DNA of 22,059 nucleotides from positions 1-22,059 of the IMG/VR virus record IMGVR_UViG_3300044858_003329; one strand, given 5' to 3'. A model generated the notes under the pieces. It saw nothing but the letters and a program-made list of their open reading frames with translations. It was not told where the DNA came from and made no database searches. Positions 2,486-17,973 of the stretch are shown here, piece by piece (the stretch's first letter is position 1; every line of letters begins with the position of its first letter). This DNA is from a virus. The translations under genes and the position numbers were made by a program.

Positions 2486-3472
2486 TTATGTGAGGGCAGT
2501 GATCTTGCCGTGAGCACCGGGGTGTTTCACGATGAGAGTCAAGGCGCAATCAACGTAGCCGCGTTCGCCACCACCAAGGTTGGGGAGACGGGTCGAGCCA
2601 GTTGGGATGAGCTCAGCAATGCCGTAATACTCGGGGTTAACCAAGTAGCCGGTGTCTTTGTTGGTCGTATCCGGAGCGCAGTCAGGATTCATGTTGACGA
2701 TGGACACGATGCCGTGGTCGGACTCGTAGAGTTCAACCGACAGCTTAATAGACGCCTCGCCGCCATCATAGCTAACTTTGCGAACCGAGTAGTCCGAGCT
2801 ACCCGAAGTGCGAGCAAAGTCGCTGATAACGCGACGGAGCGATGTGTCAGCAACAAGCGTCAAACCATTGCTCATGCCGGTAACGCGGAAGATGCTGGTG
2901 ATGAGGTTATTGAAAACGGTTTCCGTGAAGGTCGTGCCGGAGCCCTGAATCGAACCCGCTGGGGTGCGATAGGCTGCTGGAACGTCTGCTGGACCTGCGC
3001 TATCAATCCAGTCGCCAAGACCACGAAGGCCGTATGGCGTGCCCGCGCCGTCCTCAATCGAACGGTCGTTGTTGGAGCAGAGGGTAGCCTCGATGTCGCG
3101 CTTGATTTCGCGCACCGATTTTGCCTCAGCTTGGGCAATCTTTGCTGGACCAACGCTGTCAACAGCGTTTTGCAAGTCGCTAACCATGTAGTCGCGGCGG
3201 AACTTTTGGATATAGTTACCGAGGCGAGCGCGGTTGGAGAATTTGTCCGTGAATGATGTAACGTCTGCACCTTCTGCAACGCCCGTTGTGGTGGGGGCAG
3301 CAAGGCTATCGACAGTCCACTCAACGTAGGTAGCGGTAGCTTTGGATTTAGAGGCGGACGAAAGAACTGGTGTCTCCTCGGGGGCGAGGATCGTCAGAAC
3401 GTCTGTGAGGTCTTCGCGGTTAGAAACAGCGGAGCCGGGATTAGTTGTATCGTAGGTATTAGAAAAGGCCAT
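2486..3472 (-). CDS. Major capsid protein, SU10/DUF5309 type (HK97 fold)
   Basis: The 328-residue protein forms the icosahedral shell. Its N-terminus, with REDLTDVLTILAPEETPVLS at about 19-38 followed by a short helix and EWTVDSLAAP, is the hallmark of the SU10 major head protein family (DUF5309), which adopts the HK97 fold. The following charged helical region (about 85-135, with REIKRDIEATL) and later Gly-rich and beta segments also fit. Length matches the family. It follows the scaffold gene by 12 bases and precedes the probable decoration gene. The start has the AATAATATG context seen at other structural genes. The long open frame on the opposite strand is a by-product of its codon usage. 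Confidence 0.9.
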   Translation of the reverse strand: MAFSNTYDTTNPGSAVSNREDLTDVLTILAPEETPVLSSASKSKATATYVEWTVDSLAAPTTTGVAEGADVTSFTDKFSNRARLGNYIQKFRRDYMVSDLQNAVDSVGPAKIAQAEAKSVREIKRDIEATLCSNNDRSIEDGAGTPYGLRGLGDWIDSAGPADVPAAYRTPAGSIQGSGTTFTETVFNNLITSIFRVTGMSNGLTLVADTSLRRVISDFARTSGSSDYSVRKVSYDGGEASIKLSVELYESDHGIVSIVNMNPDCAPDTTNKDTGYLVNPEYYGIAELIPTGSTRLPNLGGGERGYVDCALTLIVKHPGAHGKITALT

Positions 3473-4690: not shown

Positions 4691-4765
4691 GCCCTTGTAG
4701 CTCAGTGGTAGAGCACCAGTTTTGTAAACTGGCTGTCGTAGGTTCAATCCCTATCGGGGGCTCCA
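4691..4765 (+). tRNA. tRNA-Thr (anticodon UGU)
   Basis: A full cloverleaf can be drawn. The acceptor stem is GCCCTTG with CGGGGGC (two G-U pairs), the D arm GCTC/GAGC, and the anticodon stem CCAGT/ACTGG with loop TTTGTAA. Anticodon TGT at 4723-4725 reads ACA, and the T arm is GTAGG/CCTAT around TTCAATC. G1-C72, C2-G71 and G35-U36 agree with known threonine identity elements. The discriminator is U and CCA is encoded (4763-4765). It is on the strand opposite to all surrounding genes, and its CCA abuts the stop codon of the 4766-4978 gene. No convincing promoter is visible just upstream. Confidence 0.95.
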
Positions 4766-10207: not shown

Positions 10208-10246
10208 GGATTCAGGCGGGGGATTGACGGCGAGGATTCAGGCGGG
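10208..10246. repeat. 13-base direct repeat in the control region
   Basis: GGATTCAGGCGGG occurs exactly at 10208-10220 and 10234-10246, with a 26-base period. Function unknown. Confidence 0.55.
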
Positions 10247-10380
10247 CGGGCAGTCCATACCTAGCGTTGGCCGTTGGCTCTCTTCCTTTGTGCTTACGCT
10301 ATCCCTAGCCTTTTGCTCTGCTCTTACAGTGTGAGGTATTAGGGGCCGCGCGTTGGATGCCCGAAATGAATTTTAACCCT

Positions 10381-10414
10381 TTGACATTGCTTCACTTGCG
10401 TCTCTCGCTATTCT
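10381..10414 (+). promoter_or_regulatory. Possible early promoter
   Basis: A perfect TTGACA (10381-10386) overlaps a TTGCTT (10387-10392); the latter is 16 bases before TATTCT (10409-10414). The first is too far from that -10-like box for a standard spacing. It lies about 100 bases before the first plus-strand gene. This is a weak call. Confidence 0.25.
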
Positions 10415-10517
10415 TTTTTCACAAAAAGACTTGCAATCGCTCACACGCTCGCACACTCTCACCGCATAGCCAACGCACAACGCAGAGGCAACCAAAAACA
10501 GAAAAGGAAAACACATC

Positions 10518-10703
10518 ATGGAAACGAAACACGACAAGATTGCCAAAGCCGCCGCAAAACTCGCCTCCGCCTTTCTTCACCGAAACGCAAATATTCGCAC
10601 CGCATATCGGGACGCGCACCGCACGCTTCGCTATCACTTGAACAGAACAGCGGAAGACTTAGCAATTGCGGCCAATCGTTCTGAGTCTTGGATGAACTCA
10701 TAA
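10518..10703 (+). CDS. First rightward gene, small helical protein, unknown
   Basis: A 61-residue basic, helical protein (KIAKAAAKLASAFLHRNANI, ending RSESWMNS). The start is supported by AGAAAAGGAAAACACATC before ATG, a version of a leader that recurs before the next two genes. An overlapping 94-codon frame from 10357 has Pro/Thr-rich shadow composition and no ribosome site. The gene is followed directly by a terminator-like hairpin. First genes of early arms often encode host takeover proteins, but nothing in this sequence shows a function. Confidence 0.65.
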   Translation: METKHDKIAKAAAKLASAFLHRNANIRTAYRDAHRTLRYHLNRTAEDLAIAANRSESWMNS

Positions 10704-10750
10704 CACCCCGCAAACCCAACCCCAACCCTGCCGACACTCGGCGGGGCTTT
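10701..10750 (+). terminator. Hairpin terminator, copy 1 of a repeated module
   Basis: From the stop codon the sequence reads TAACACCCCGCAA, then a C/A-rich spacer, then the stem CCCTGCCGA/TCGGCGGGG (10726-10734/10738-10746, one G-U pair, CAC loop) followed by CTTT. The T tract is short, so termination may be partial. A near-identical module occurs at 11361-11412. Confidence 0.6.
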
Positions 10751-11108: not shown

Positions 11109-11363
11109 ATGAACACCCGGGAAATCTATCACTTATTGCGCCGCCAATATCGCACGGCGAAACGCGATTTGCTAGCTAACAACGCAATTGCCATTTGCCA
11201 ACAGGCCAACAGCGCGTTGAGAAAGCTCACCAAAAGTTGGGACGTCGGCTTAATGCCGCCGTGCAACCCTAATTACTACAATATCTCGACAGAATGGGAG
11301 ACAAAGGGAAATCGCCGCACGCTTTTCGTCTCTCGCTCGCTCACTAATTGGCTGAAAGCTTAA
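11109..11363 (+). CDS. Small basic protein, unknown function
   Basis: The start at 11109 follows AACAGAAAAGGAAACAA, matching the leaders of the two preceding genes; the longer in-frame start at 10941 lies inside the previous gene. The product has 84 residues, basic, with a helical N-terminal half (EIYHLLRRQYRTAKRDLLAN, then ANSALRKLTKSW) and a more beta-prone C-terminal half (YYNISTEWETKG, RRTLFVSRS). It could bind nucleic acid given its charge, but that is a guess. A repeated terminator module begins at its stop codon. Confidence 0.65.
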   Translation: MNTREIYHLLRRQYRTAKRDLLANNAIAICQQANSALRKLTKSWDVGLMPPCNPNYYNISTEWETKGNRRTLFVSRSLTNWLKA

Positions 11364-11412
11364 CACCCCGCAACTCCCAACCCCCAACCCTGCCGACACT
11401 CGGCGGGGTTTT
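11361..11412 (+). terminator. Hairpin terminator, copy 2 of a repeated module
   Basis: This has the same TAACACCCCGCAA start and the same stem CCCTGCCGA/TCGGCGGGG (11388-11396/11400-11408, CAC loop) as at 10701-10750, here followed by TTTT. The spacer differs by a few bases. The T tract makes this the better terminator of the two. Confidence 0.65.
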
Positions 11413-11473
11413 GGAGTGCCCGGGCATGACGTCCGGGGAAGGCAACGCTAGAAAAAGACTAGGGAAAAACACA

Positions 11474-12346
11474 ATGACAACGGAAGAAAAAAAAGACGTT
11501 TATAGCATCATCACGGAACGCATCGTTTCCCAATTAGAAGCGGGGACGGTTCCTTGGCGCAAACCTTGGAAAGCGCAAAACGGCGGCAACCCTGCAAACT
11601 TTGGAAGCCGCAAATCCTACCGGGGCATAAATTGGTTTCTGCTATCCTTTTCCCCTTATTCGTGCCCGTTTTGGCTCACTTACAAACAAGCCGCCGAATT
11701 GAAGGGAAGCGTGCGGAAAGGGGAAAAGGGGACGCCGGTAGTCTTTTGGAATTGGGTTGATAGCAAAACAGAAAAGGACGCTACCGGCAAGCCGAAGAAA
11801 ATCCCCTTCCTGAAGTATTACACGGTTTTCAACGTTGAACAGTGCGACGGCATAGCATGGGCGGCAGAAAAGATTGAAGGGGCAACCTTTAACCCCGTAG
11901 CAGAGGCGGAAAAGATTGTTTCCAATATGCCAAGGGCTCCCAAATTGGCACACGGCGGCGACAGAGCATATTATCGCCCGTCAACAGATAGCGTGCAAAT
12001 GCCAAAAGCCGAAACGTTTGACACGTCCGGAAACTACTATTCCACACTTTTCCACGAATTAGCGCACGCAACGGGGCACGAAAGTCGGTTAAACCGTAAA
12101 GGGGTTGCAGAGGTTGCGGCGTTTGGCGGGGAAACCTACGCGAAAGAGGAACTAGTCGCGGAGATGGGCGCGGCGTTCCTTTGCGCTGTTTCGGGGATTG
12201 ACAACACCTTGCCCGCTTCCGCCTCTTATATTCAGGGATGGCTAAAGCAATTGAAAGAGGATGCCAAGCTAGTAATTCACGCCGCCGCGCAGGGACAACG
12301 GGCCGCCGATTTCATTTTGGGAAAGATGGAAACGCACGCCGATTGA
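11474..12346 (+). CDS. ArdC-like antirestriction protein (ssDNA-binding + metallopeptidase domains)
   Basis: I start at 11474 (AGGGAAAAACACA before ATG), giving 290 residues; an upstream in-frame ATG lies within the terminator module. Residues 8-125 match the ArdC N-terminal ssDNA-binding domain (ITERIVSQLEAGTVPWRKPW, YRGINWFLL, WLTYKQA). Residues 160-285 are the zincin-like domain with HELAH at 194-198 (two zinc His and the catalytic Glu) and the downstream acidic segment YAKEELVAEMGAAF that usually supplies the third ligand. ArdC proteins from plasmids and phages protect incoming DNA, and the early position fits that job. Family assignment is strong. Whether this copy inhibits restriction or serves DNA metabolism is not shown. 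Confidence 0.9.
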   Translation: MTTEEKKDVYSIITERIVSQLEAGTVPWRKPWKAQNGGNPANFGSRKSYRGINWFLLSFSPYSCPFWLTYKQAAELKGSVRKGEKGTPVVFWNWVDSKTEKDATGKPKKIPFLKYYTVFNVEQCDGIAWAAEKIEGATFNPVAEAEKIVSNMPRAPKLAHGGDRAYYRPSTDSVQMPKAETFDTSGNYYSTLFHELAHATGHESRLNRKGVAEVAAFGGETYAKEELVAEMGAAFLCAVSGIDNTLPASASYIQGWLKQLKEDAKLVIHAAAQGQRAADFILGKMETHAD

Positions 12347-14290: not shown

Positions 14291-14779
14291 ATGAAACTAA
14301 CTGAAATGACACCGAAACAATTCTGCGACGCAAAAAACGCTTGCAACGAGGGGCGCAAATTCGCCCTTAAATATCAATCCATGAGCGAGGTTTGGGACAA
14401 TTGCCCAAAAGTTGATTGGCTCTTATGGATCACCGACAAAACCGGACGACCGGACGACCGAACACTTAGGTTGTTCGCGGTCTGGTGTGCTCGAAACACG
14501 CCGTTGCCCGATGGCCGAAAAACAGGGGACTTAATAACTGACCCGCGATCACTTTTCGCGCTTGACGTGGCTGAACGATTTGCAAATGGCAAAGCAAGCG
14601 CGGCTGAATTGGCTGCTGCGGGGGATGCTGCGTGGTATGCTGCGCGGGATGCGGGGGCTGCTGCGGGGGCTGCTGCGTGGTATGCTGCGCGGGATGCGGG
14701 GGCTGCTGCGGGGTATGCTGCGGATAAGGCTCAGGCTACCCAATTTCGCGCCATGGTTAAAAACCCTTTCACCCAATAA
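14291..14779 (+). CDS. Ala-rich helical repeat protein (Imm5-like)
   Basis: I start at 14291 (ACAAAAAAACAC before ATG), giving 162 residues; a longer frame begins in the preceding membrane gene. Residues about 30-75 (VWDNCPKVDWLLWI, then RLFAVWCARN) and DVAERFANGKASAAELAAA match a widespread phage/bacterial family I know as Imm5-like: a Cys/Trp-rich N-terminal part followed by Ala-rich helices. The C-terminal part contains two near-exact 15-residue repeats, AAWYAARDAGAAAG plus one residue. The family name suggests toxin immunity, but no toxin gene is visible nearby. Function in phages is unknown. Repeat number may vary between relatives. Confidence 0.7.
   Translation: MKLTEMTPKQFCDAKNACNEGRKFALKYQSMSEVWDNCPKVDWLLWITDKTGRPDDRTLRLFAVWCARNTPLPDGRKTGDLITDPRSLFALDVAERFANGKASAAELAAAGDAAWYAARDAGAAAGAAAWYAARDAGAAAGYAADKAQATQFRAMVKNPFTQ
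14611..14723 (+). repeat. 45-base tandem repeat within the Ala-rich gene
   Basis: Copies at 14626-14670 and 14671-14715 are identical at 43 of 45 positions, with a partial third unit before them (14611-14625) and a partial one after. The 15-codon period keeps the frame. Confidence 0.9.
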
Positions 14780-14784
14780 AACAC

Positions 14785-15117
14785 ATGAAAACAGAAAACG
14801 AAACACCATTAAGAGCAGAAATTGGCACCCGCAAAATCTGCTTCCCCTACCACGTTGGCCAACTGCAGGCCCTTTTACGCTATTGCCTGCCCTACGGGGT
14901 GATACCGGGGGTGACGATCACGGATAAGGCCGCGCTTAACGAATGGGTAGAAACGGAAATTGAACGCTGCATTCAAGAGGCAGAACAATTTGAGAAGGAG
15001 GCATTCAGTCCCTTAACCCCAACAGAGATTGCAGACGTAGAATCGTCGATGGACGCCATTTACAAACAAAGCGCGAAAGTGCCCTACAAACCACTTGACA
15101 CTGAACCTATGGTATAA
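14785..15117 (+). CDS. Small phage protein, unknown function
   Basis: A 110-residue protein starting after AATAAAACAC. It has a beta-prone N-terminal part (IGTRKICFPYHVGQLQALLR), a helix that includes LNEWVETEIERCIQEAEQFE and an acidic, Pro-containing C-terminus. No motif is recognised and there is no membrane segment. Its stop codon TAA lies within a perfect TATAAT, so a promoter for the downstream structured region is embedded in the end of this gene. It closes the first block of the early arm. Confidence 0.7.
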   Translation: MKTENETPLRAEIGTRKICFPYHVGQLQALLRYCLPYGVIPGVTITDKAALNEWVETEIERCIQEAEQFEKEAFSPLTPTEIADVESSMDAIYKQSAKVPYKPLDTEPMV

Positions 15118-15118
15118 T
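15110..15118 (+). promoter_or_regulatory. Perfect extended -10 promoter element
   Basis: TGGTATAAT at 15110-15118 is a consensus extended -10 (TGnTATAAT). A TTGACA at 15095-15100 is only 12 bases away, too close to serve as a normal -35, but extended -10 promoters can do without one. A start at about G15125 is expected. Confidence 0.7.
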
Positions 15119-15124
15119 CCCCTC

Positions 15125-15230
15125 GTTAGGTAGCTGTACAAGAGCCTACGGACATTTCATTTTTCCCGCCTGCCGACGGAGGGAATCTTCAGAAAAGCCC
15201 CTTGGTACTTGTACTGCCAAGGGGTTTTTT
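15125..15230 (+). ncRNA. Probable small RNA or attenuated leader (about 105 nt)
   Basis: The stretch between the extended -10 promoter and a strong intrinsic terminator has no convincing ORF. It contains a hairpin TTCCC-G-CC/GG-A-GGGAA (about 15164-15184) around TGCCGAC, and weaker pairing near the 5' end (TAGG with CCTA). The RNA could act in trans as an sRNA, or be a leader whose terminator is conditionally read through into the downstream helix-turn-helix genes. No known RNA family is recognised. Confidence 0.55.
15198..15230 (+). terminator. Strong Rho-independent terminator
   Basis: CCCCTTGG (15198-15205) pairs perfectly with CCAAGGGG (15217-15224), followed by TTTTTT. AAAA upstream would also allow function on the other strand. 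Confidence 0.92.
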
Positions 15231-15369
15231 ACTGCCCTGAAAGTAAGACGTACCGTTAAGGGGACGTATAAGCCATGTTGCACCTTACGCCTTAAACGGC
15301 GACACACTCAGCTTTGCTAGGACAGCGCGAAAATCCGTTCCCCAACTTTGAAGATTCGAGGGAGGGCGG

Positions 15370-15506
15370 TATGGAACTCCCTCTGGAGGATCATTTGGCA
15401 GCTAAGCGCATACCGAAGCCCTGATTCTTTTGGGGTGGTGCAAACGGGACTCTCAGACATTGGCCTAACGGCCTATGGAATCTTCTCTGTCGGATATTTG
15501 GCAGCT
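15370..15506 (+). repeat. Imperfect duplicated element in the structured region
   Basis: TATGGAA...CTCTG...GGAT...TTTGGCAGCT occurs at 15370-15403 and 15474-15506 (104-base period). The second copy has one base less in the GAT(C)ATTTGG part, so the two short reading frames differ after that point. Confidence 0.6.
15371..15424 (+). CDS. Possible 17-residue leader peptide
   Basis: An ATG five bases after a strong GGAGG Shine-Dalgarno encodes MELPLEDHLAAKRIPKP and a stop. The Shine-Dalgarno lies in one arm of the GAGGGAG/CTCCCTC hairpin and the ATG in its loop, so ribosome access could be controlled by folding. The duplicated element at 15475 encodes MESSLSDIWQLIT without a good ribosome site. 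Too short to call with confidence. Confidence 0.3.
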   Translation: MELPLEDHLAAKRIPKP

Positions 15507-15562
15507 TATTACCTAGCCGCGAATTGCGTAGCGGCGTCACAAACAAGAAACAAAAATGCGGG

Positions 15563-15584
15563 AAACCCCTTAAAGGGGGTTTTT
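15563..15584 (+). terminator. Intrinsic terminator just before the HTH genes
   Basis: AAACCCC (15563-15569) pairs with GGGGTTT (15576-15582) around TTAAAG, with T's continuing. It lies 14 bases before the next start codon. Confidence 0.85.
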
Positions 15585-15598
15585 CGCCTCATTTAAAC

Positions 15599-15832
15599 AT
15601 GAATCAAGAAATAACACCTCAAGAAACAAGCATTAGTCCTGAACATTCAGTCTTAATGCCTAAAGAGATAGTCATTAAGAATCGAATTAGATTGCCAACG
15701 AAACGTGGCTGGGCGGCCATGAAGGTCGCAGACCTGTTCAAAGCACAAAAAACGTTACGAGAGCTCTGCCGGGATCATGGGGCTCCGCTCCACCTAGCAA
15801 GACACTATCTCTACCAAAATAAAACAAAATGA
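15599..15832 (+). CDS. Small putative helix-turn-helix protein 1
   Basis: The start at 15599 (ATTTAAAC before ATG) gives 77 residues; the open frame extends upstream through the terminator, which is not coding. After a polar N-terminal stretch, residues about 40-75 (AAMKVADLFKAQKTLRELCR, then DHGAPLHLARHYLYQ) have the spacing of a helix-turn-helix, and resemble those of the next two products. ATGA overlap with the following gene suggests co-translation. It could be a transcriptional regulator of the structured control region directly upstream, but no target is shown. Confidence 0.55.
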   Translation: MNQEITPQETSISPEHSVLMPKEIVIKNRIRLPTKRGWAAMKVADLFKAQKTLRELCRDHGAPLHLARHYLYQNKTK

Positions 15833-16068
15833 GCACAGCCAGCACTTGCCTAGACCTAATCTTTCGTCATGCTCCGCGCCTTATGCGCGAAGGTGGGGGA
15901 CCAATCGAGGAGGACAGGAAAACTAACAAGCTCTCAGCCAAAACGATTTTCGCTATTCTCGAAATGCGAAAAAGTGGTATGCCCATCAAACAAATAGGTA
16001 AGGAGCTGGGCGTAAGTAGGGCCGCAATTCAGGTCCATTGCCGAAAGAACAACGTAAAGCCTTTATGA
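15829..16068 (+). CDS. Small helix-turn-helix protein 2
   Basis: A 79-residue protein with a clear resolvase/recombinase-type helix-turn-helix at about 40-75: IFAILEMRKSGMPIKQIGKE followed by LGVSRAAIQVHCRKN. There is no catalytic domain, so it is a stand-alone DNA-binding unit, probably a regulator. ATGA overlaps join it to both neighbours, which also carry HTH-like segments. Of the three it has the strongest motif. Confidence 0.7.
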   Translation: MSTASTCLDLIFRHAPRLMREGGGPIEEDRKTNKLSAKTIFAILEMRKSGMPIKQIGKELGVSRAAIQVHCRKNNVKPL

Positions 16069-16355
16069 ACATATCAGAAACGATGGCTTCCGTCAGATTT
16101 TTGATGGGAAAATACTACAAACGATTTGCGGACAACCCTATTGCACAGGGGAAAAGCCGGGAGTTTGCTTCACGGCCTAGAATTGACGCCGAAAAAGCGT
16201 TAGCCGTTGTGCAAGACTGGCGAAAGGGGCTTAGCCGAAAGGATTTATGTAAGATACACAGCCTTTCCTTGCCCTCGGTTGATCGATTGGTGAAGGCAAA
16301 CAAGGACAACCACTCACCCACGTTAGATAACATAAGCTACAAAATAAAAAAATGA
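16065..16355 (+). CDS. Small helix-turn-helix protein 3
   Basis: The start at 16065 is fixed by ATGA overlap, giving 96 residues. Residues about 45-80 (AEKALAVVQDWRKGLSRKDL, then CKIHSLSLPSVDRLVKA) form an HTH pattern of the same kind as in the preceding product (helix, glycine-containing link, second helix pair, recognition helix). The N-terminal part is basic and probably helical. It overlaps the ABA-sandwich-like gene by ATGA. A transcriptional regulator is likely; the three adjacent HTH proteins could recognise different sites or form mixed oligomers. Confidence 0.65.
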   Translation: MNISETMASVRFLMGKYYKRFADNPIAQGKSREFASRPRIDAEKALAVVQDWRKGLSRKDLCKIHSLSLPSVDRLVKANKDNHSPTLDNISYKIKK

Positions 16356-16717
16356 ACACTGAAAAACAAAGAATTGCCATCGCGGAAGCGTGTGGATGGA
16401 AGAACGCTGACCATCCCGACGCAATGAAGCTCAAGCAGGGTTGGATAATGCCAGAGAAGTGGTGCATGGACCCAAAGGGCGTTTTGCGCTTTAACCATCA
16501 CAGGCCCGACTACCTCTCCGACCTTAACGCTATGCACCAAGCGGAGAGGGTGCTGACGCAACAGCAGCGGATTGAATATGTCCGCGAGCTTGGTTACATT
16601 TGGACAGGTCGTAACGACAGGGCGATTCCGAACTGGTGGTTTGTCCACGACGCCACTGCCATCCAACGCGCAGAGGCTTTTCTCCGCACGATTGGCAAAT
16701 GGGAGGATGACAAATGA
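16352..16717 (+). CDS. Phage ABA-sandwich-like protein
   Basis: A 121-residue protein resembling the small phage ABA sandwich family: an N-terminal helix (KQRIAIAEACGWK), the core DYLSDLNAMHQAERVL at about 53-68, a second helix-strand unit and a final ATAIQRAEAFLRTIGKW helix. The function of this family is unknown. It overlaps the HTH gene before it and the helicase gene after it by ATGA, so it is translated with the replication module. Assignment rests on the recognisable LNAMHQAE and ATAIQRAEAFL segments. Confidence 0.7.
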   Translation: MNTEKQRIAIAEACGWKNADHPDAMKLKQGWIMPEKWCMDPKGVLRFNHHRPDYLSDLNAMHQAERVLTQQQRIEYVRELGYIWTGRNDRAIPNWWFVHDATAIQRAEAFLRTIGKWEDDK

Positions 16718-17973
16718 ACAAAGAATCCATCTTCATAGGGGCTTGCTTGGCTTGCCCCGAACTCATAGACGACGGCATAGCGCAGGGACTCAGCAACGCG
16801 GCGTTCGGCACCGCCCACCGCACCCTCTGGCAGACCCTTGTGGGGCTGAGAAGCAAGGCGCAACTCACCGACTGTAACAGTGTCTATCTAGCTTTGGGCG
16901 ATAAGTGCCCAGCCGATGAGCTATTTGCGGCTGAGAAAGCCTGCCAAAGCTCAGTGACCGGCAAGAAGGCATTGAAGAGCCTGATATGGGAAGGACAGTT
17001 GGCCACCCTCAAGCCTGCCCTTCAGGACACGATTGCTTGCGTTTTACGGGGCGGGAAGGCTGAAGAGGTGTCAACACTCGTGGAAGGGCTACAAACTCAC
17101 TTAAAACCCACAGAAAGCGAGGCTCCGAGCCTAATCCAGCTCATAACGGAGGTTAAACTCTGGGCTGAACAGGAAATTGCGGGGACTAGGGACAATAGGG
17201 ACCTCGTAACTACCGGCCTACCTAGCTTCGATAAGCTCGCTTCGCCTATGGAAGCACATGAATATGTGGTGGTGGGGGCGCGGACCAGCATAGGCAAGTC
17301 CTCGTTTATGAGCCAAATCGCTTCGCACAACCTCAACCGGGGGCTTAGAGTGGCCTACTTCACCCTTGAAACCTCAGCCGGGGCGGTGGTCAAACAAATC
17401 GCGGGACAGCGCAGCAAGGTGAATTTGCGTCAGATAAACCAAGAATTGTCAGATAAACAGCAGGAATATTTCAAAGCCCTTAAAAGACTAGGCGAGCAAC
17501 ACCTGAGAGTATTCGACAAGGATATGACTGTTGGCCAAATCGAATCTCGCTGTCGTCTATTGGCCGCAAGCTGGAAGCCTCAGCTAGTAATCATTGACTA
17601 CCTCGGGCTAATCAGGGGCACCGATGGCTCAGCCTACGAACGCATGGGGCAGTTGTCTAAAGCCATGATACCGCTACGCAAAACCCTTGGATGTGTTCTT
17701 ATGGTGGCGGCTCAACTCAACCGCTCCAACGAACGGGAAGATCGTGCGCCAACTCGTAGCGACTTTCGGGACGCTGGCTCCATTGAGGAAGACGCGCACA
17801 GAGTCATTGCCCTCCACCGGCCTAGCAAGAGCCACACTGGAAACGTGCAAGAACTAGGGCAATCCACCTACGACTACGAACTCCTTCAACTGAAGCTCAG
17901 GGATGGACCGCTGGCATACAGCCGCATCAAATACTTCGCGCCCCATACATGGTTTTACGAGGAACAGGCATGA
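16714..17973 (+). CDS. DnaB-family replicative DNA helicase
   Basis: The 419-residue product has an N-terminal helical domain (1-130) and a RecA-like DnaB ATPase domain. Walker A is GARTSIGKSS (188-197), the catalytic Glu is in YFTLETS (about E219), Walker B is LVIIDYL (D295), the sensor glutamine is in VAAQLNRSNE (Q334), and RSDFRDAGSIEEDAHRVI is the typical H4/arginine-finger region. It unwinds the fork ahead of the phage or host polymerase. The N-terminal domain is short and shows no primase motifs, so this is a helicase only. ATGA overlaps on both sides place it in the replication operon. Confidence 0.92.
   Translation: MNKESIFIGACLACPELIDDGIAQGLSNAAFGTAHRTLWQTLVGLRSKAQLTDCNSVYLALGDKCPADELFAAEKACQSSVTGKKALKSLIWEGQLATLKPALQDTIACVLRGGKAEEVSTLVEGLQTHLKPTESEAPSLIQLITEVKLWAEQEIAGTRDNRDLVTTGLPSFDKLASPMEAHEYVVVGARTSIGKSSFMSQIASHNLNRGLRVAYFTLETSAGAVVKQIAGQRSKVNLRQINQELSDKQQEYFKALKRLGEQHLRVFDKDMTVGQIESRCRLLAASWKPQLVIIDYLGLIRGTDGSAYERMGQLSKAMIPLRKTLGCVLMVAAQLNRSNEREDRAPTRSDFRDAGSIEEDAHRVIALHRPSKSHTGNVQELGQSTYDYELLQLKLRDGPLAYSRIKYFAPHTWFYEEQA

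Follow-up and report, generated by a model that had tools for sequence, protein, structure and literature searches.

The window analysed here is a 22,059-nucleotide stretch of a virus record (IMG/VR IMGVR_UViG_3300044858_003329, positions 1 to 22,059). Between two small open reading frames that lie upstream of a DnaB_C helicase gene (16714–17973) there is a conserved element, and the features that delimit it are as follows:

14785–15117, + strand: upstream ORF of 110 amino acids with no Pfam or PHROG match, lying outside the RNA and ending in a TAA stop codon at 15115–15117.
15088–15100, + strand: conserved box AAACCACTTGACA, the left limit of the conserved unit and a candidate activator site.
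15110–15118, + strand: extended −10 TGGTATAAT, overlapping the stop of the upstream ORF; the form TGnTAnnAT is present in 24 aligned relatives.
15125–15536, + strand: putative structured RNA of about 410 nt, with a likely start 7 nt after the −10 and a likely end near hairpin P14.
15558–15587, + strand: terminator-like hairpin after the RNA, of a motif shared by 10 of 27 distinct sequences.
15599–15832, + strand: downstream ORF of 77 amino acids with no Pfam or PHROG match.

Elsewhere in the window there are an ArdC-type anti-restriction protein (ArdcN plus MPTase-PolyVal; 11348–12346), a lone tRNA-Thr (4691–4765, + strand) within the minus-strand structural module, and, seen by eye, GC-rich repeats at 14570–14730 that fall in the Ala/Tyr/Arg-rich C-terminus of an ORF ending at 14779.

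Related loci were collected from IMG/VR, 32 by way of the helicase and 19 by way of the upstream gene (many of the 19 on contigs already found), and positions 14700–16760 of the window were compared with 52 loci, the window's own included. Matches begin at 15086–15088 where the upstream gene differs and end near 15535–15554 where the downstream gene differs (L018, L020–L023 and L025), and the conserved unit in these relatives extends from approximately 15088 to 15536. A profile finds the element in 46 of the 52 loci, four of them partial, and further copies were added by pattern scans; in a set of 38 stretches, those without a profile match were treated as chance, and L089–L092 are, by eye, chance matches in a coding-like stretch. 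Nine of ten parent contigs searched have one copy each, on contigs that may be incomplete. The 14.8-kb contig L059 has two different copies (2841–3315 on the − strand and 10246–10724 on the + strand), which could reflect either a chimera or a duplication.

In the helicase loci the element is situated upstream of the helicase gene and in the same direction. It is present in 31 of the 32, whether in full, cut by a contig edge, in part or diverged (the other, L032, begins inside the helicase gene), although the diverged L029, L030 and L031 have the element without the exact promoter pattern. The sequence-only reading had named decay of the promoter and stems beside retained flanking genes as the finding that would speak against it, and with 31 of 32 helicase loci carrying the element this is not what is seen. 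In other collections, two core patterns have no match among genomes of 84,980 species, and neither the window stretch nor the distant L063 copy has a blastn match among the INPHARED phages.

The promoter is where the sequence-only reading placed it, with the extended −10 lying over the stop codon of the preceding gene. The distance between the TTGACA of the conserved box and the −10 is 12 bp, and it is the same in all 24 of 24 aligned sequences. This is the wrong distance for a sigma-70 −35, and a consensus promoter scan did not list the 15110 promoter, there being no −35 at 16–18 nt. There is a single copy of TGNTATAAT in the 22-kb window, and because its chance mean is 0.35 the −10 is not significant by itself. 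The TTGAC box and the −10 at their fixed spacing have one match in the window when up to one mismatch is permitted (chance mean 0.27), and a match is present in 25 of 100 shuffles, so that the pattern is weak from the window alone. The promoter is convincing because the pattern recurs at the element across loci: 75 of 85 loci contain TTGAC-N10-TGnTAnnAT, a count in which many loci share contigs and the spacing is built into the searched pattern, and the pattern occurs once per locus apart from L059, which has it twice. The exact pattern is absent from ten of the 85 (L019, L029–L032, L046, L051, L054, L063 and L075), of which L063 and L075 have by eye a TTGATG 16 nt from a TGGTA site instead. 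Excerpts of one source describe T4 middle promoters as having a MotA box 12 ± 1 bp upstream of the −10, with about half also containing TGn (PMC2988021). The element promoter shares this activator-box spacing, but its box is TTGACA where that of MotA is TGCTT, and there is one site per contig stretch examined. The TTGACA box may likewise be bound by an activator.

The RNA predicted to start from this promoter has the following parts, all on the + strand:

15133–15145, + strand: hairpin P1 (GCU/AGC) with loop GUACAAG at 15136–15142; 90.5% of cells paired.
15136–15142, + strand: first strand of a kissing loop, pairing with 15208–15214.
15163–15185, + strand: hairpin P1b (UUCCC/GGGAA), of variable sequence and recognised by eye only.
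15197–15225, + strand: hairpin P2, the terminator of the sequence-only reading, with loop CUUGUAC at 15208–15214; 83.4% of cells paired.
15225–15230, + strand: U-tract after P2, the 3′ part of which pairs in P3.
15229–15246, + strand: helix P3 (UUACU/AGUAA); 94.1% of cells paired, with double changes in 2 of 5 pairs.
15248–15267, + strand: helix P4 (ACGU/ACGU).
15257–15287, + strand: H-type pseudoknot helix, UAAGG (15257–15261) with CCUUA (15283–15287); 100% paired, with 29 double-change cells.
15288–15301, + strand: hairpin P6 (CGCC/GGCG).
15320–15414, + strand: long-range helix P7, 15320–15328 with 15406–15414; seven distinct strand pairs, and 0 of 36 swaps reach the stability of the own partner.
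15336–15369, + strand: helix P10, 15336–15343 with 15360–15369; 10 of 50 swaps are as stable as the own partner.
15393–15403, + strand: first copy of motif M, ATTTGGCAGCT.
15496–15506, + strand: second copy of motif M, identical to the first.
15516–15535, + strand: 3′ hairpin P14 (GCCGC/GCGGC); two strand types, in 23 of 27 and 4 of 27 sequences.

The 8-bp hairpin with six T's reported earlier is found at the place claimed, the arms of P2 being CCCCTTGG (15198–15205) and CCAAGGGG (15217–15224), followed by TTTTTT and ending at 15230; in the window P2 is a GC-rich hairpin directly followed by a U-tract, the form of an intrinsic terminator, though the tract is altered in part of the relatives. 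The stretch has no widely conserved ORF, and the small internal hairpin described there exists in the form of P1, the loop of which kisses that of P2. These loops, of 7 or 8 nt, are mutually complementary and covary. Across 28 distinct sequences all 196 of the 196 cells in the seven pairs are Watson-Crick, with 47 double changes and six of the seven pairs changed on both sides, while slid controls pair at 17–42%; on two of five measures the kissing loop is not above shuffles (36 of 500 and 343 of 500). Rows with 8-nt loops that break the P1/P2 register (L007, L016, L026 and L027) are retained in this count. The P1 stem has no double change. A descriptor was built from a pair of hairpins, their loops of 7 or 8 nt complementary to one another, and a T-rich tract; scanned over 0.8 Mb of partly redundant loci, it gave 27 distinct matches, 24 at elements and three elsewhere, versus two in one shuffled copy.

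Most relatives have an imperfect P2 stem, in which two positions are unpaired in 16 of 28 and 20 of 28 sequences, including the four shifted rows. When RNAalifold was run on the alignment as a whole, it did not keep the kissing loop and P2 apart. Terminator-like sites in the window number 14 versus 17.8 expected, which is no excess, and P2 is not listed by that scan. In the majority of aligned relatives the U-tract is long, which together with a promoter and a terminator-like hairpin that are both real is what could be expected if the locus encoded a trans-acting sRNA of about 105 nt (15125–15230) terminated at P2. This is improbable, however, in that AC displaces the U-tract in 7 of 28 relatives and the 300 nt downstream are conserved and pair both with the U-tract side (P3) and internally. 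The proposal of an sRNA ending at 15230 as the whole unit is accordingly not upheld, since 15235–15536 is also conserved and structured. A 115-nt fold has a z-score of −3.3, and the fold of the 483-nt stretch 15118–15600 likewise has z = −3.3.

Before counting, exact duplicates and incomplete copies were removed from the 24 aligned relatives and the 27 distinct sequences, L028 and L049 (both without the core) from the 28-sequence alignment, and L042, L063, L067, L075, L077, L082, L084, L086, L087 and L088 from a further 24-sequence set; the distant L054, L063, L075, L030 and kin contribute to none of the pair counts. In a structure of 41 pairs 94.1% of cells are paired, against an average of 81.8% in shuffles and 37–49% in slid versions. 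Sixteen pairs have double changes, a number reached by 73 of 500 shuffles, and the count of further pair types is reached by 500 of 500; these two of the five measures are non-discriminating because shuffles reach them. Among 106,570 column pairs in an unfiltered ranking, the six that covary best (15259:15285, 15140:15210, 15139:15211, 15258:15286, 15137:15213 and 15273:15280) are each 100% pairable, and every one is a pairing position of the structure, whether in the kissing loop, in the pseudoknot or in a small adjoining helix. Further down the ranking covariation loses specificity: a pairability of at least 85% is reached by 25 of the top 140 column pairs, with a background of 12%. P7 joins segments about 80 nt apart, and its support is stronger than that of P10. 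Helix P9, an RNAalifold proposal, was discarded as unsupported, 40 of 70 swaps being as good as the own partner. Compensatory changes are thus found over a long non-coding unit, as in large structured phage non-coding RNAs.

Two explanations that would dispense with an RNA can be weighed against these data. The longest ORF inside each of the 27 elements encodes 46–91 amino acids, as might be expected of a coding region or a decayed gene; outside groups of near-identical sequences, these frames do not recur but differ in strand and place, the alignment contains 1–2-nt indels, and a coding region was rejected for want of any widely conserved frame in the element, leaving this account hardly credible. 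A DNA-level element, such as an origin of replication or a site of recombination, with inverted repeats that fold into hairpins as DNA, would be consistent with the position upstream of replication genes, with the module-like limits, and with kissing-loop pairs that, being all Watson-Crick, also suit single-stranded DNA. We consider it highly improbable: the promoter points from the same end in all aligned relatives, G-U pairs are kept in P2, P3 and P4, and both kissing loops and pseudoknots are features usually associated with RNA.

The two copies of motif M, 11 nt in length and 103 nt apart, change together among relatives, and in all 27 of 27 sequences both places share an identical string of 8–13 nt. 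There are five types (ATTTGGCAGCT, ATTTGGAAGC(T), ATTTGGAAACTTA, ATTAAGCCACT and CGGGGAGC), and since there are only five, few independent events are represented. Columns 15399 and 15502 covary (rank 17) though they are not pairable. No convincing partner for the motif was found inside the RNA, nor any convincing phage target among exact complements of at least 8 nt in 15 sequences; five GGCAGC-type sequences (window 16941, L006, L009, L011 and L018) share one 8-nt complement at a common position in the helicase. The concerted change may also reflect conversion between the copies.

The region after the 3′ hairpin bears on whether the RNA stands apart from the downstream mRNA. A CCCC-GGGG terminator about 30 nt past this hairpin, the sole kind sought, is present in 10 of 27 distinct sequences (nine by script and L059 by eye) and missing after the element in the other 17, where a start codon follows 23–111 nt later; over all 27 the next start codon is 19–111 nt downstream. 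In L030 the 3′ hairpin is in turn followed by TCGTTTTT. Because 17 of 27 sequences are without the terminator motif and have a start codon nearby, there is room for a leader role, in which the element would be the cis leader of a replication-operon mRNA controlling read-through or translation, with P2 and its U-tract as an attenuator set by the kissing loop, or, in a variant, would modify RNA polymerase like the HK022 put RNA. Such a role is in keeping with the shared direction of element and helicase and with the U-rich or pyrimidine-rich tract that follows P2 in the subclasses inspected by eye (in distant relatives the U-tract is pyrimidine-mixed). Against it, conserved structure continues for about 300 nt past P2; the next gene, a member of the window's family in 19 of 27 sequences, belongs to five other kinds (by eye) in 8 of 27; a second terminator follows the element in some relatives; and no conserved alternative pairing able to undo P2 was recognised by eye in nine sequences. 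We therefore regard the leader and its variant, taken jointly, as possible but doubtful. Although part of the relatives have exchanged neighbouring genes, the promoter motif, the loops and the stems persist, and they do so with compensatory change. This comparison lends good support to the earlier suggestion of an RNA that matters in itself and is served by its own promoter.

Comparison with Rfam 15 reveals no family at threshold at the element, in the window or in the relatives scanned, and over the whole window the gathering threshold returns only tRNA. Between 14700 and 15900, permitting E-values up to 10, there are only weak matches to DGCR5, anti-hemB (15163–15232, E 4.2) and sroH, each short of its gathering score, and no intron; a group I or group II intron was rejected as an identity of the element, no conserved catalytic core being found by Rfam models. 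With relaxed E-values L086, L087, L072, L054 and L001 give weak matches below gathering scores, one of which, to NsiR1 in L086, coincides with a terminator that precedes the element, and seven further loci have no element match. The GOLLD and ROOL covariance models have no match in the window and the relatives scanned. A literature search by title and the start of the abstract found no paper on the element RNA, which is not proof that none exists.

The element nevertheless has points in common with known RNAs. Complementary loops of about 7 nt are present in ColE1 RNAI/RNAII, but those of the element are both within one RNA, about 70 nt apart. The HK022 put RNA is about six times shorter than the element, and the element has a kissing loop. 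The put RNA is described as a structured phage RNA acting on early transcription (PMC9378689), and for phage ICP1 and its satellites the transcripts of highest abundance are predicted to be non-coding (PMC7567579). With ROOL and GOLLD the best reading is a likeness in kind and not in sequence. ROOL is about 580 nt long. The element is approximately 410 nt whereas GOLLD exceeds 800 in many members, they share no sequence by Rfam, and the tRNA-island location that is frequent for GOLLD, though not defining, does not apply, the nearest tRNA in the window being 10 kb away. As far as excerpts of one report go, ROOL and GOLLD form homo-oligomers through intermolecular kissing loops, for some of which there is covariation support, and no function is described for either (PMC12286853); the element is likewise large and phage-encoded, with a pseudoknot and a covarying kissing loop.

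Diverged relatives extend these comparisons. L054, L063 and L075 are distant, and L029, L030, L031 and L102 are more distant still. Complementary loops persist, with 7 nt in L054, L063, L075 and L102, 9 in L030 and 10 in L028 (hairpins by eye), and a loop match of only 5 nt in L098. L028 (1478–2320) is an apparent natural domain swap, in which a foreign central domain lies between window-type ends: its 5′ domain is 84% identical to L026 over 153 nt, its 3′ end is 81–82% identical to L022 and L027 over 48–49 nt, and its center of 261 nt is 79% identical to L101, a contig outside the helicase relatives. An 86-amino-acid ORF lies between P2 and the central domain, which is linked to further loci by a shared 21-nt block. 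A profile built on eight seeds, of which L028 is one, matches 22 loci besides L028 and L104, in a unit of up to about 470 nt, and has weaker matches, of about 30 nt only, to L029, L030, L031 and kin.

A second conserved non-coding unit of about 470 nt is present at L097 (1987–2475, − strand), and also in L094, L096, L099, L100, L103, L105, L107, L108, L110, L119, L121 and L122. Many members have, by eye, a TTGAC promoter-like start, a hairpin with a U-rich tract, and a duplicated motif of the CAGCGTTTGGATG type, and no kissing loop is obvious by eye in this set. Rfam has no match at E up to 0.5 in five of the 22 loci (L097, L099, L100, L101 and L103), and two members of the second set have no INPHARED match. 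A superfamily of modular phage RNAs can be imagined, with a common 5′ module (promoter and P1–P2 kissing loop) and 3′ hairpin, exchangeable centers, and the two copies of motif M as paired contacts to a fast-evolving host target, but we think this speculative and rather unlikely.

Several lines of evidence, namely the conservation of the unit, the kissing loop and the compensatory helices, favor a dedicated RNA gene; the ORF in L028, the failure of P9 and the absence of the promoter from distant loci count against it. In our judgment 15088–15536 is very probably a large structured phage RNA gene. That it is a dedicated gene of about 410 nt in an uncultured phage with a large terminase, acting in trans, is the explanation toward which we lean with reservation, and a trans-acting role resembling that of GOLLD and ROOL appears somewhat probable for its RNA. 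That the element is transcribed, where its RNA ends, when it is made and what it does are matters that we infer. The RNA would be transcribed from its own promoter, with an extended −10 and a TTGACA box at T4-middle spacing; P1 and P2 would kiss through fully complementary 7-nt loops in a 5′ domain, and a pseudoknotted core would be followed by a 3′ domain with the long-range helix, the duplicated 11-nt motif and the closing hairpin. The sequence called a terminator would then be hairpin P2, at which partial termination could occur, and the whole, as a large RNA or as an RNP, may have a trans-acting role during infection, as is supposed for GOLLD or ROOL.

For GOLLD and ROOL, both known large structured phage RNAs, no function has been described (PMC12286853). 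Unrelated to them by Rfam search, and with its strong covariation, its own promoter, its compact length and a natural domain swap, the element would be a tractable test case for the function of large RNAs. It also suggests that complex RNA genes which Rfam scans miss are still to be found in the intergenic regions of uncultured phages.
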